This document shows, in pieces, positions 3,614 to 13,047 of a DNA stretch of 21,564 bases. The position numbers and the translations under genes are program-made. The DNA is from a virus: positions 1 to 21,564 of IMG/VR virus record IMGVR_UViG_3300009149_000342; one strand, written 5' to 3'. The notes beneath the pieces were generated by a model that worked only from the letters and a program-made list of their open reading frames with translations, did not search any database and was not told the DNA's origin. Each line of letters opens with the position of its first letter. The first letter of the stretch is position 1.

Positions 3614-3817
3614 ATGGTACAATACGATTGGAATGAAGTTGATTACATTGGGCCCAACAACAACAACCCGCCACAACTATGGGCGTAGTCAGGGGACGAA
3701 GACCTCCTAGAGGCAGCGGAACCCTTGTTTCGCATCGCCGGGCGAGAGTTGGCGAGCATGCTCCGAGGACAGCGTAGGGCTCCAACAGACAGAGGTAGAA
3801 ATGCCAGCACCAAGTAG
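3614..3817 (+). pseudogene. Small ORF interrupted by in-frame amber codon
   Basis: The ATG at 3614 follows GTGGAGA. It encodes 24 residues (MVQYDWNEVDYIG, four Asn, PPQLWA) and meets TAG at 3686-3688. The same frame then continues for 42 sense codons, including DLLEAAEPLFRIAGREL, a helical stretch typical of small phage proteins, to a TAG at 3815-3817 that overlaps the exonuclease start. There is no good start codon after the amber. Options are a 67-codon gene with a nonsense change or base error, amber readthrough, or a functional 24-aa peptide. The function is unknown. Confidence 0.4.
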
Positions 3818-4421
3818 CTTACTGAACCTAAATGGCAACATGCTTGCGGCTATTGATGTGGAAACAACCGGGCGGGTTGCGGGGTACCATGAGATTGTTC
3901 AAATCGCTGTTGTGCCTTTAACAAGTTCTATTGATCCGGTACCCGATGTGAATCCATTCTACATGAACATTGCCCCGGCCCACCCTGATCGGTGTGAGTC
4001 CGGAGCCCAGAGGGTTCATGGACTGGACATAGCTGAATTGGTGAACAACTGCCCGGATGCTTGGAAGGTTGCAGATTTATTCGATGAGTGGTTTCAAGCA
4101 CTCAACTTACCTTTTAAGAAGAACTTGATTCCGATGGCCCATAACTGGGCTTTTGAGCGTGGCTTCCTAACGCACTGGCTTGGTATTGAATCCTTCAACC
4201 AATTCTTCCATTTCCATCCGCGTGACTCCATGTTGTTTGCATTAAGCATCAACGATGCAGCAAACTTTCATGGTTACGAGACACCCTTTCCGTATGTTAG
4301 TCTCGGAGCTATGTGTAAGCGGTATGGAATCGAACTCGCCCACGCTCACGACGCGTTGAATGATTCTATCGCAGAAGCGAAACTGTACAAAACAATGCTT
4401 TCGTCATTTGGAAGCCGTTAA
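3801..4421 (+). CDS. DEDDh (DnaQ/RNase T-like) 3'-5' exonuclease
   Basis: Predicted metal-dependent 3'-5' exonuclease of 206 residues, likely serving phage replication or nucleic-acid turnover. ExoI is AAIDVETTG (D19, E21). ExoII is MAHNWAFERGF, where the usual HNxxFD aspartate is replaced by glutamate (E119). ExoIII is HAHDALND, with general base H183 and metal ligand D188. An RDSML segment (D142) precedes ExoIII. The ATG at 3801 follows GAGGT. M14 is an alternative start just before ExoI but lacks this site. It is the last + strand gene before the convergent late genes. Its last 26 coding bases recur 394 bp downstream. Fold and family are secure; whether the substrate is DNA or RNA is not. 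Confidence 0.88.
   Translation: MPAPSSLLNLNGNMLAAIDVETTGRVAGYHEIVQIAVVPLTSSIDPVPDVNPFYMNIAPAHPDRCESGAQRVHGLDIAELVNNCPDAWKVADLFDEWFQALNLPFKKNLIPMAHNWAFERGFLTHWLGIESFNQFFHFHPRDSMLFALSINDAANFHGYETPFPYVSLGAMCKRYGIELAHAHDALNDSIAEAKLYKTMLSSFGSR
4392..4417 (+). repeat. 26-bp direct repeat, copy 1 (3' end of exonuclease gene)
   Basis: Bases 4392-4417 match 4786-4811 exactly. The copy encodes the last residues of the exonuclease (TMLSSFGSR), and the next three bases (TTA) complete the stop TAA. Confidence 0.9.
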
Positions 4422-4760
4422 GCCGGCGCGTAAAAATCGCTGCAACGTGCGTAGCTGCCGCTCCGGCCGCTCCCCGAGGATGTTTTTCTTTTGAGAAAAC
4501 AGATGAAACTTTGCAACAATGATATCTTTCAGATTATCCACGGCGGCTGCCGATGACTCACCGGAGGCCGAGATATCGGTGACGACAAGCGAAGCCAAGT
4601 ACACGCCGTTGGTTGGCCGCACGACGGCGAGAAGCGGGCGGAGAACGCGCAGCGAATAACCAGGAAGCACTGTAAGCGCTGTGAATAGCACAGTGTTATG
4701 TGCCCAAAAACCACTCTGCGGTGTTCTGGCATCCATGGTTGGTAACTCTACGGCGGGCAT
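4404..4760 (-). CDS. 118-aa hypothetical protein inside the repeat-bounded segment
   Basis: Opposite in strand to the exonuclease and overlapping its last 18 bases; its final residues (TASK) come from repeat copy 1 read antisense. The middle of the protein looks genuine: TNGVYLASLVVTDISASGES followed by a helix with NLKDIIVAKF, then LGERPERQL and LRTLQRFLRAG. The strand pattern followed by 'DI.ASG.S..AA..NLKD.I' vaguely resembles HicB/UPF0150-type folds, but this is only a suggestion. By hand count about 58% of codons end in G or C, against about 45% in the first 40 codons of the exonuclease, hinting at a different origin. No Shine-Dalgarno site precedes the ATG at 4760, so it may be an unexpressed captured fragment. 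Confidence 0.5.
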   Translation of the reverse strand: MPAVELPTMDARTPQSGFWAHNTVLFTALTVLPGYSLRVLRPLLAVVRPTNGVYLASLVVTDISASGESSAAAVDNLKDIIVAKFHLFSQKKNILGERPERQLRTLQRFLRAGLTASK

Positions 4761-4785
4761 TACTTGTTTCTTTCGCTTGCTAGAG
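4418..4785. mobile_element. Putative 394-bp insertion bounded by 26-bp direct repeats
   Basis: The unit (one repeat plus 368 bp) lies at the 3' end of the exonuclease gene. Repeat 2 carries the same C-terminal codons followed by an in-frame TAG, so either copy would restore the gene. This is how insertions at a gene's 3' end (att-like) or repeat-mediated duplications look. The interior encodes one opposite-strand ORF and no transposase or integrase. No terminal inverted repeats are evident. Capture of a foreign fragment by recombination is an equally good explanation. Confidence 0.5.
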
Positions 4786-4811
4786 ACAATGCTTTCGTCA
4801 TTTGGAAGCCG
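4786..4811 (+). repeat. 26-bp direct repeat, copy 2
   Basis: Exact second copy of 4392-4417. It is followed by CTAG in place of TTAA, so in the exonuclease frame it still ends SFGSR-stop. No gene lies between here and 4869 on either strand, and no convincing terminator is visible in that gap. Confidence 0.9.
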
Positions 4812-4869
4812 CTAGTTTATTGCAGGGCGGTCTAGGCGGCGCTAATTGCGTTTACACGCACGCCTTACC

Positions 4870-5016
4870 CTATCTTGTTTGCCCCTGGGCCCTGCGCCTT
4901 TTACGAGTGCCTGCACGGGGTATCTTAGACAGTTTCGTTCGAGTAGTCCCCGGGATCAGCACATTTTTTGCCTTGCGATTCCCGGTACTTTTTCGTCCGC
5001 CACAGCAGCAGCCCAT
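4870..5016 (-). CDS. Tiny basic protein with N-terminal Cys cluster (48 aa)
   Basis: The last gene of the - strand block, 31 bases downstream of the 248-aa Cys-rich gene. The ATG at 5016 is preceded by AGGAG with an AAAAGAG spacer, matching the site used by the 160-aa gene at 13584, which supports this start over the longer frame. The product starts MGCCCGGRK and then carries 15 Lys/Arg in total with no Asp or Glu, ending in a TRKRRRAQGQTR tail. The Cys triplet and charge suggest a metal- or nucleic-acid-binding peptide. I do not recognise the family. The stop is TAG at 4870-4872. Confidence 0.6.
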   Translation of the reverse strand: MGCCCGGRKSTGNRKAKNVLIPGTTRTKLSKIPRAGTRKRRRAQGQTR

Positions 5017-5047
5017 CTCTTTTCTCCTGGTTGTAACAGTTGACCTG

Positions 5048-5794
5048 TTACCAAAAGTCACGGGGACAGTGTTCTGTCGTCATCCGGACTTTGTTAAGTA
5101 AAGCCGCTCCGCCGGGCTTCACCTTACAGCCGCAGCCCTTGCATCGTTTGTTCTTTTTATCGTACCAGTCACAGCCAGTGCAGTAAGTACCGTGTAGGAA
5201 TTCAACTTCGGCATCCGTGCGAGTTGGACGCCCTGCGGCAATCCAGCGTGTTACGGCGTTCCAATAGTTCTGAAGCTGTGTTGGGAGCCCGGGAACCTCC
5301 GGAATGTCTCGGGAATTCAGGGAAACTCCGACCTGTGCCAAGGCCCCTTTGCAACGATCACACTCTTCAAAATTGGCGGGCTTCTTTGCCACCCCGCAGT
5401 ATGCCTTGATTTTAAGCGACCCATCAGACTTAAGGTCATTGTTGAAAACACGGTAGGGACAAGGAAACCAAACTGGATCAAAAGTCCAGTCATCAGTTGC
5501 CCGCCGTTGATAGCCTTCGGGGCATCCAGGGGGCTCCGTAGCGGCGGGCTCATAACAAACCTCCCCGCCTTCCCCGTACCGGGGCGAACGGTACACTGGT
5601 TTTCTTGGCGGCCTGGAGCCGCACGGCCGCTGGCTCAACAAGACTTGCCGAAGCACACAAGTATCACAGGTCGACTCGTCCACTTCTTGACGGTACGTAC
5701 AAGCAGTTCCATGCGCACATTTGTAGAATTCACGCTTTGACCCGTCCTGCTCTGTGTGGATAATTTTACGGCGTTTCTGGCATGTTAGTTGCAT
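5048..5794 (-). CDS. Cysteine-rich protein with C-terminal zinc-ribbon-like module (248 aa)
   Basis: The ATG at 5794 overlaps the upstream stop (TAATG), which is preferred over the upstream in-frame ATG at 5815. The product has 18 cysteines. The N-terminal cluster runs C...YKCAHGTAC...STCDTCVLRQ, a middle cluster includes FEECDRCKG, and the C-terminal module is YCTGCDWYDKKNKRCKGCGC followed by NKVRMTTEHCPRDFW. The pattern CxxC-x7-CxxCxC...CP..W is a recurrent phage zinc-ribbon-like ending I recall from uncharacterised proteins. There is no signal peptide or membrane segment. The upstream 126-aa protein has the same two end modules without the middle. Zn binding and a structural or redox role near the tail tip are inference. 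Confidence 0.72.
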   Translation of the reverse strand: MQLTCQKRRKIIHTEQDGSKREFYKCAHGTACTYRQEVDESTCDTCVLRQVLLSQRPCGSRPPRKPVYRSPRYGEGGEVCYEPAATEPPGCPEGYQRRATDDWTFDPVWFPCPYRVFNNDLKSDGSLKIKAYCGVAKKPANFEECDRCKGALAQVGVSLNSRDIPEVPGLPTQLQNYWNAVTRWIAAGRPTRTDAEVEFLHGTYCTGCDWYDKKNKRCKGCGCKVKPGGAALLNKVRMTTEHCPRDFW

Positions 5795-6174
5795 TACCAC
5801 AACCCCAGAGGACATTGAAAATCAGAGTATTTTACATATTCATCAATTGGAACATGGCTGGGACAACCATGCGCAAAGCACAGCTTGCTCTCAGGGTCGA
5901 GGAATTTGCACTTAAAGCAATAATGCTCCAAGATTTCTTGTCTCTCGGGGGGCGTCCGGGTGTCGAGTTCAGTTACATCATAAATATCCCCGAGAGTTTC
6001 TTGTAGTTGGCAATCATTTGTATCCGGCACTTCTTGTAGCGAACAATTATCACAGATCATTCGACTCACGGGAGCACAATGATGAACACACAGATGATTT
6101 CCGCATGTGGAAAAATGAATCTTCCGGATTGTCTCGAAGATTGTTCGTTGATACTTGCAAACTTGCTCTTTCAT
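5794..6174 (-). CDS. Cysteine-rich protein, shorter paralogue (126 aa)
   Basis: Twelve cysteines arranged as in the neighbouring 248-aa protein. The N-terminal part has STCGNHLC, MICDNCSLQE; the C-terminal part has HYCFKCKFLD, LCFAHGCPS and a closing FQCPLGLW. The likely metal-binding C-terminal module is therefore CxxC-x7-CxxxGC...CP..W. The ATG at 6174 overlaps the stop of the tail-tip gene (TAATG) and is preceded by a perfect AAGGAGGT site, so translation should be strong. It is the smaller of two adjacent paralogues, probably from duplication followed by insertion or loss of the middle region. Function unknown; position suggests a tail-tip accessory or chaperone. Confidence 0.72.
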   Translation of the reverse strand: MKEQVCKYQRTIFETIRKIHFSTCGNHLCVHHCAPVSRMICDNCSLQEVPDTNDCQLQETLGDIYDVTELDTRTPPERQEILEHYCFKCKFLDPESKLCFAHGCPSHVPIDEYVKYSDFQCPLGLW

Positions 6175-10949: not shown

Positions 10950-12005
10950 TTAGCCGACCTTTACCCCAGCTTGAAGATTGTCTATATCGCCACGAACCCA
11001 GTCTAAACTGGTCACAGGGTTGATAAGCATGAGGCGTGTAAAGGTAAGATAATCACTGGTCCCGACTGAAACACCGGCGTCCGCATCTTCGGTTGTAGCA
11101 TGCTTGATGACTGTCTTTAGTATTTTTTCTTCTGTCCCTGTAATTTTTGCCTCACTATGAATCTGGACTCCTTTGATTTCACACATTGCCGGAGGGCTCT
11201 CATAATTATAAAGATCAAGATCATCTGTCACAGTGCTTTCTACGTACTCTGAGTCATCTTGTTTCAATTCGTCAACAGCTTCATAATGATTGGGACCGGG
11301 AGTTACATCCCAGTCTGAGGAGTCTCCTTCGGAAGACGGTATGAGTGTTGTGACAACTTGCCCAGGCCCGAGAAAATCGTTGCAAACTGCGCTAGTAGAG
11401 TCACACATCCAAAAATCATCTATACGTGGATTTTTATCCACATCGGGGTTGATGCTTTGAAAACGAATAGCTGCATAGTAATTATTGTTCGGGTCATCTT
11501 TAGTGTCTGCAACACCTTGGAGTTCAACTGCGTTGTTAACACGAAGTTCATACGTGCCAGCACTGTCATCGCAATAAACTTTGAGTTGAACAAAATACCA
11601 TGTCCCCCACGAAATAACTCCGGCGTCAGTCGTTCCTAGCAGATTCCAACCACTGTACAAACTCAGGGAGCCGTCCGCGTTAATTTGTAATTGGACACCA
11701 ACATAATAATTGTTGATAGTCTTAAATTGTAGAAACTTTCCAGCCTGGGCAATTGGTTGGCGCATTGAAAAACCAATAATCAATGTACGATCAGTTGTAA
11801 GATGGGGCGTTTGAAACCAATGCGATGTGTCGTAAGCAATTGCTATTGAGTACCCTCCTACCCTACCAGCACAAACCTTAAGTGCAATATCCCCGTCCTC
11901 AGCTAGTTTATAGCGCCCTGACATGATTCCTGTCGGCTCAGTTTGATAAGGGTACCCAACTCCATCGCCGTACCGATCAAAACCATCGAACCATAAGAGT
12001 GCCAT
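10950..12005 (-). CDS. LamG/concanavalin-like virion protein, copy 2 (351 aa)
   Basis: Second of two tandem paralogues. Begins MALLWFDGFDRYGDG, then LTTDRTLIIGF, GTWYFVQLKV and YELRVN, the order of strands seen in LamG-type jelly-roll domains (about 1-200). A linker with IDDFWMCDST leads to a C-terminal module with NHYEAVDE, YVESTVTDDLDLYNYE, LKTVIKHA and an ending GVKVG. That two-module layout is common in phage tail proteins thought to bind surface glycans. The ATG at 12005 overlaps the upstream stop (TAATG), and the Shine-Dalgarno AAAGGTGGG is contributed by the codons for KVG of copy 1. Carbohydrate binding is inferred from the fold. Confidence 0.72.
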   Translation of the reverse strand: MALLWFDGFDRYGDGVGYPYQTEPTGIMSGRYKLAEDGDIALKVCAGRVGGYSIAIAYDTSHWFQTPHLTTDRTLIIGFSMRQPIAQAGKFLQFKTINNYYVGVQLQINADGSLSLYSGWNLLGTTDAGVISWGTWYFVQLKVYCDDSAGTYELRVNNAVELQGVADTKDDPNNNYYAAIRFQSINPDVDKNPRIDDFWMCDSTSAVCNDFLGPGQVVTTLIPSSEGDSSDWDVTPGPNHYEAVDELKQDDSEYVESTVTDDLDLYNYESPPAMCEIKGVQIHSEAKITGTEEKILKTVIKHATTEDADAGVSVGTSDYLTFTRLMLINPVTSLDWVRGDIDNLQAGVKVG

Positions 12006-13033
12006 TAGCCCACCTTTATCCCCATTTCAACACTGTTAACACCCGATTGAATCCAGGCAACTGCTGTATTTGGGTCATCAGCCATCAAACGAAGATCAGT
12101 AACATAGTCAGTGCTGTCAATTGTGTCGGCTGCACTATCGTATTTCACCCCGCCCGACTTTACCACTGTTTTCAAATCATAGGGGGTTCCGTCTGTTACA
12201 CAAACATCCGTGCATAAACAAACGGCGGCGATTTCATTGTCAAGTTCTGCTATGTTTTCATATCCATAAATATCTTCATTGTCAGTTACAGTGTCTTCAA
12301 CGTATTCACCGTCCCCCTCTGGATCAACTTCGTCAACAAGCGTGTAATGGTCCACAACAGCGCTAGGAGTCCAATCAATATCAGTTGTGTCAGCATTGGG
12401 AAAAATGGGGAGAATTCGTTGCTGCCCGATGAAATCATTCTGTTTTGTTCCGGTGCTGTCACAAATATAGTAATCATCAATCCAGGGTGTTTTGGTCGTA
12501 TCAATATATGTGCCTCGAATGAAAACTTGATCGTGATATGGTTCATTAACTTGTGTGTCGATCCCGGTGTCTGAAAGAACAGTTTGACCATTTACACGAA
12601 GTTCATATGAACCGTTTACGCTATCACAAACAACCTTAAATTCCACATAATGCCATTTATTTGTACGGATTACAATTTCAGTTGTTGCTGCAATGACTAC
12701 GTAATCCCGGTAGACACATAACACCCCTGAGTCATCAACACCTAAACCCATTCCATGTGAGCCGTCACTGTACATCCAGAAAAAGTAAGCGTCATTAGGA
12801 ACCTGCACAAATTTTAGAGCAAAGCCAACGATCAGTGTATCATCAGTTGTAAGACTAGGAGTTTTGAACCAAGAAGTTATTTCAGCGGGGACAATACACC
12901 AGCCGCCAAATCGACCATTTTTAGTTCTCAAAGAATCAGCACCAACAGTATAACGGCGCCCTACCTCTAACCGTGCGTGCGCACCATCGGCATCCTCATA
13001 ACCTTCAAAACCATCCATCCAGAGTAGAGCCAT
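12005..13033 (-). CDS. LamG/concanavalin-like virion protein, copy 1 (342 aa)
   Basis: Start placed at the ATG at 13033 (AAGGTG six bases upstream), matching the MALLW start of copy 2. A GTG three codons earlier is the alternative. It shares with copy 2 MALLWMDGFEGYED, LTTDDTLIVGF, YELRVN, IDDYYICDST, VDHYTLVDE, YVEDTVTDNEDIYGYE, LKTVVK and the closing GIKVG. The N-terminal ~200 residues fit a LamG-type beta sandwich and the rest a second small beta module. The gene starts only 15 bases past a strong terminator, so expression depends on readthrough or a promoter within the terminator/upstream gene. Likely a tail-surface protein. Confidence 0.72.
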   Translation of the reverse strand: MALLWMDGFEGYEDADGAHARLEVGRRYTVGADSLRTKNGRFGGWCIVPAEITSWFKTPSLTTDDTLIVGFALKFVQVPNDAYFFWMYSDGSHGMGLGVDDSGVLCVYRDYVVIAATTEIVIRTNKWHYVEFKVVCDSVNGSYELRVNGQTVLSDTGIDTQVNEPYHDQVFIRGTYIDTTKTPWIDDYYICDSTGTKQNDFIGQQRILPIFPNADTTDIDWTPSAVVDHYTLVDEVDPEGDGEYVEDTVTDNEDIYGYENIAELDNEIAAVCLCTDVCVTDGTPYDLKTVVKSGGVKYDSAADTIDSTDYVTDLRLMADDPNTAVAWIQSGVNSVEMGIKVG

Positions 13034-13047
13034 TGTAGTCACCTTTG

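Follow-up and report, generated by a model that had tools for sequence, protein, structure and literature searches.

Results

The Exonuclease Gene End and Its Direct Repeat

The window, by which we mean the whole stretch of DNA analyzed, is IMG/VR record IMGVR_UViG_3300009149_000342 (21,564 bases, 48.9% G+C), a tailed-phage contig in which a primase-like protein and a tail tape measure protein are also encoded (Pfam, PHROGs). On its plus strand, positions 3801-4421 encode a DnaQ-like 3'-5' exonuclease of 206 residues (Pfam RNase_T, E = 2e-11; PHROG 192, "DNA polymerase exonuclease subunit," E = 3e-25). The native convergent neighbor of this gene is a small gene on the minus strand at 4870-5016, which encodes a basic protein of 48 residues beginning MGCC and is referred to here as the MGCC gene. 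The region of interest, 4392-4811, starts within the 3' end of the exonuclease gene.

Two segments of this region, 4392-4417 and 4786-4811 on the plus strand, are identical at 26 of 26 positions with a start-to-start spacing of 394 bases. The chance expectation for such a pair is about 4e-8, and the window has no other exact direct repeat of at least 18 bp; the match lengthens to 28 of 29 bases. Copy 1 consists of the last exonuclease codons and its coding likeness runs on past the exact repeat, through the stop codon TAA, to 4421. In copy 2 the likeness reaches 4815 with the stop TAG, after which the native right flank begins. Read in the exonuclease frame, both copies give TMLSSFGSR followed by a stop, the final arginine codon and stop being CGT TAA in the first copy and CGC TAG in the second. 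The 3' end of the exonuclease gene is the target of the insertion, and the reading frame is intact. In these respects the first-pass annotation, which had reported the identity of the two segments, their coding of the exonuclease C-terminus with different stop codons, and the survival of the gene, was accurate.

In both copies a CGN arginine codon precedes the stop, which sits at the same codon position; unrelated sequence would supply that stop with a probability of 0.047. Because of this shared position, an origin of both repeats from exonuclease ends is favored over a plain 26-bp target duplication, and the comparison suggests that both copies descend from exonuclease gene ends. Selection to keep the exonuclease working makes this argument less strong. 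Within the repeat there are imperfect inverted arms, GCTTTC-GTCATTT-GGAAGC, which are matched or bettered by 16% of shuffled 26-mers. The exact 26-mer had no match in the IMG/VR search, from which records very near the window may be missing.

Relatives Retain an Empty Site

Relatives were drawn from IMG/VR, and the identity of their exonucleases to that of the window is 80-81% for L001-L004, 76% for L028, 74% for L029, 71% for L005, and 63-68% for L031-L034. The MGCC gene is conserved as well (63-77% in L001-L004 and 41% in L005 by tblastn), and it adjoins the exonuclease gene at the same position in L024 and L028-L034. L001-L005 each have one exonuclease end, with the convergent MGCC gene following within about 60 bases and nothing like the DNA found between the repeats in the window, while in L029-L034 the two genes almost touch. 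Across L001-L005 and L029-L034, a single exonuclease end is followed by the MGCC gene at 0-60 bp. The 394-bp unit is absent from L001-L005 and L028-L034, and no duplicated exonuclease end was found in any relative tested. The genes on both sides of the unit are collinear with those of L001-L004.

The same gap between the exonuclease and MGCC genes is occupied in L028 by about 240 bp carrying an unrelated plus-strand ORF (3620-3856) for a hydrophobic protein of 78 residues, and there is no direct repeat. The gap preceding the exonuclease gene also varies, from 235 bp in L002 and about 306 bp in the window to 430 bp in L004 and about 750 bp in L001. The differing insert in L028 and the variable neighboring gaps indicate that DNA comes and goes in this neighborhood with no dedicated element involved.

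The first-pass annotation had called the unit an insertion and proposed aligning relatives at the exonuclease 3' end. That alignment, in which the unit is missing from L001-L005 and L028-L034 and a single gene end remains, supports an insertion relative to these relatives. Since relatives with exonucleases 63-81% identical to that of the window are without the unit and have one gene end each, the unit is, judged by these alignments, a gain specific to the lineage of the window. Loss in all relatives is possible and less economical than gain.

The Interior of the Unit and Its Opposite-Strand ORF

Between the repeats lies an orphan interior of 368 bp (4418-4785; 53.8% G+C) that is absent from all relatives. 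It gave no DNA or protein match in the IMG/VR relatives and their whole records, in phage and plasmid records, or in GTDB genomes, and none in Rfam, Pfam, PHROGs, NCBIfam, or PDB sequences. A blastn search with positions 3801-5101 likewise found no match among 50,697 phage records. No second copy of the unit was seen in the window, in the records of the relatives, or in any collection searched. Family searches detected no recombinase encoded in the unit, in agreement with the earlier annotation, and terminal inverted repeats are absent from its borders. Neither strand of the unit has an unusual RNA fold (fold z-scores of -0.03 and -0.40). The Rfam search of the region gave no group I or II intron and no known structured RNA, only a sub-threshold chance match outside the unit. 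The region also has a single promoter-like and a single terminator-like match, both weak and no more than shuffled sequences give.

On the minus strand, positions 4404-4760 form an ORF of 118 codons whose C-terminus is read from repeat copy 1 and which runs in the same direction as the structural genes. The ORF had no tblastn match in phage (50,697 records) or plasmid records, no match in IMG/VR in two scans with different peptide sets, none in GTDB genomes, and no family match in Pfam, PHROGs, or NCBIfam. Among random 420-bp sequences with matching dinucleotide composition, 16% contain an open run this long. Its codon score is 0.10, where the lowest real gene segment scores 0.083 and the highest wrong-frame segment 0.108. 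By its sequence the ORF is borderline coding-like and its status as a gene is doubtful: the first-pass annotation was right that an opposite-strand ORF ends inside copy 1, while its standing as a gene is not established. Given the direction of the structural genes, the ORF could be transcribed by readthrough. A single-sequence AlphaFold2 model of the 118-residue product had a pLDDT of 48, too poor for a structure search.

Several marginal matches were rejected as chance. These were flagellin matches in the PDB (E = 0.09-1, ORF residues 59-104), 17 bases shared with the L045 record, 28 bases shared with a Streptomyces plasmid, and a stretch of 31 bases with 82% identity in G012.

A Hairpin Element Upstream of the MGCC Gene in Relatives

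In nine relatives (L024, positions 3803-3900; L025-L030, L032, and L033) the 5' UTR of the MGCC gene, on the minus strand, contains a conserved hairpin element of 65-90 nt. The sequence of the outer stem varies between relatives yet stays paired, that is, it covaries, and it encloses a fixed core, GGC[A/G]AGCNG...C(N)GCG[A/C]TAGTC, whose internal loop is AA/GATA. In the two inner stems, standard pairs fill 97 of 110 positions at the right register, a count that includes one likely chance sequence, L058; sliding the strands by 1-2 bases leaves 22-45. The same core sits inside a completely different outer stem in another contig, L059 (positions 1590-1670). The element has no Rfam match at gathering thresholds, and in a relaxed IMG/VR scan convincing copies were confined to this phage group. 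It may represent a novel RNA element with a regulatory or processing role.

L034 (positions 3760-4314) and L008 have an ORF (184 residues in L034; SPFH-like by eye) between a gene for a 250-residue protein and the MGCC gene, and this ORF contains the letters of the element core (QQVV..GKRN..AAIV..DDLL). The hairpin element may have arisen from this ORF, be a remnant of it, or overlap it. The window is without the element and has instead a plain hairpin on the minus strand at 5033-5051 (GTAACAG-GTCAA-CTGTTAC), which overlaps the stop of a gene for a 255-residue protein.

That gene (5048-5815) and its neighbor at 5794-6174 (126 residues), both on the minus strand, encode cysteine-rich proteins whose C-termini both match PHROG 13558 (E about 3e-4), and by this likeness the two are likely paralogues. 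Farther along, diverged repeats occur at corresponding positions of two adjacent minus-strand genes, 10950-12005 and 12005-13042 (71-77% over 51-52 bases, at a spacing of about 1.03-1.05 kb), and from the sequence we read the pair as a tandem gene duplication.

Discussion

Origin of the Unit

The explanation that we favor, with moderate confidence, is that ordinary out-of-register (illegitimate) recombination brought foreign DNA into the junction where the exonuclease and MGCC genes converge. The partner, we infer, would most likely have been a related phage in which an exonuclease end is followed by this DNA. The left end would have been joined through the shared exonuclease 3' end, and the right end illegitimately, at a point 26-30 bp short of the stop of the recipient's own exonuclease gene. 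With one gene end contributed by each parent, this order of events would produce the duplication of the 26-bp end, and since the left copy stops at the same codon, the exonuclease would be unchanged and the insertion tolerated. Either such recombination or a capture event in which the gene end was duplicated would account for the variable junctions, the stops at the same codon, and the lack of recurrence, and neither calls for a special mechanism. The IMG/VR and phage searches did not yield a donor phage with an exonuclease gene followed by this unit, although the collections may lack records very close to the window and a close donor may thus have escaped them. What is more, a 26-base repeat placed exactly at a gene end is also expected from site-specific integration at a gene 3' end, which counts against our preferred reading.

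Such integration would have involved a 394-bp circle with a copied exonuclease 3' end for its attP and a recombinase acting in trans, so that the 26-mer would be the common core of attL and attR. The length of the repeat, its position at a gene 3' end with coding preserved, the retained stop, and the synonymous nature of the differences all fit att cores. However, the unit encodes no recombinase and has no second occurrence in any collection searched, its core arms are no better than those of 16% of shuffled 26-mers, and a duplicated exonuclease end occurs in no other relative; we regard this origin as unlikely. The notion of an integrase-less 394-bp cassette that enters phages at the exonuclease 3' end through a recombinase supplied in trans, sparing its target by bringing a replacement gene end, we hold to be quite unlikely. 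The first-pass annotation had seen in the unit the geometry of a minimal mobile element or gene cassette. That view is not supported by the search for the unit at other loci (IMG/VR, phage, plasmid, and GTDB), in which it did not recur, nor by the missing terminal inverted repeats, the arms that 16% of shuffles equal, or the repeat-free insert of L028. Between the two routes it had offered, mobilization in trans or homologous capture, capture fits better, albeit with one illegitimate junction and hence not as a fully homologous event.

A non-autonomous transposon or MITE would also leave a short unit, non-coding or with a small ORF, between exact direct repeats, and an empty site without the second repeat copy, if its target-site duplication were unusually long at 26 bp. 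A target duplication of this length is far above what is usual for bacterial transposons, terminal inverted repeats are lacking, the unit is single-copy, and an in-frame stop at the same codon in both copies would have to be a coincidence, which makes a transposon very improbable. It is likewise quite improbable that the unit is a metagenomic chimera of two phage strains. The window is an IMG/VR virus record and we found no closely related second contig that confirms the junctions, but the flanking genes are otherwise collinear with L001-L004 on both sides, the right-hand join has no shared sequence to misguide an assembler, and the k-mers of final assemblies are usually longer than 26 bp. An assembly error behind the unit is unlikely. 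The reading to which we give the least credence is that the unit was present in the ancestor and was lost from all relatives. Recombination between the repeats would leave precisely the empty site observed; however, independent loss would be needed in every branch of relatives, the perfect identity of the two copies points to a recent event, and no relative with diverged but recognizable copies was found.

Comparison with Known Systems

Out-of-register recombination of this kind would place the unit within ordinary phage mosaicism, which it fits; it is not a proven mobile element. As in mosaic or moron gains, it is short, lineage-specific foreign DNA at a gene boundary, with intact neighbors and no recombinase, and relatives have other DNA (L028) or none at the same boundary. 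Morons in the strict sense are genes that have a promoter and a terminator of their own, whereas the promoter-like and terminator-like matches of the unit are at the level of shuffles and its ORF may not be a gene.

Integrative elements that attach at gene 3' ends (tyrosine integrase att sites) resemble the unit in having a gene-end direct repeat at both borders and a rebuilt gene end. They differ from it in that the unit has no integrase, is known from a single instance, and has imperfect att-like arms no better than 16% of shuffles give. Only one in three of the features of att-flanked elements was clearly found: an identical core is present at both borders with a single core in the empty site, a recombinase or recurrence at similar sites is absent, and the inverted arms around a short crossover region in the core are the imperfect ones that 16% of shuffles equal. 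Neither the terminal inverted repeats nor the multiple copies of MITEs and insertion sequences were seen.

Very small units with an empty site known from relatives have been described in phage genomes, such as the 439-bp MPME1 of mycobacteriophages (PMC3029335). Inverted repeats bound the MPMEs, 6 bp are added on the left, and identical copies occur in several phages (PMC3029335). The unit shares with MPME1 and MPME2 its very small size and its empty site, and differs in its 26-bp direct repeat, its lack of terminal inverted repeats, and its single copy; neither the tblastn search with the ORF nor the blastn search with 3801-5101 against the 50,697 phage records revealed MPME homology. The PeSL promoter/stem-loop cassettes of T4-like phages, mentioned in PMC4503421, are short intergenic units linked to gene shuffling. 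To that extent the unit is similar, being short, intergenic, and tied to shuffling between genes, and unlike them it is without a strong promoter-like or stem-loop signal.

Were the unit to recur at another locus, it would be an unusually small mobile cassette; as found, it is ordinary. It shows, in a clean and recent case, how tailed phages acquire DNA where gene ends converge, with the neighboring genes unharmed and the empty site kept in relatives.
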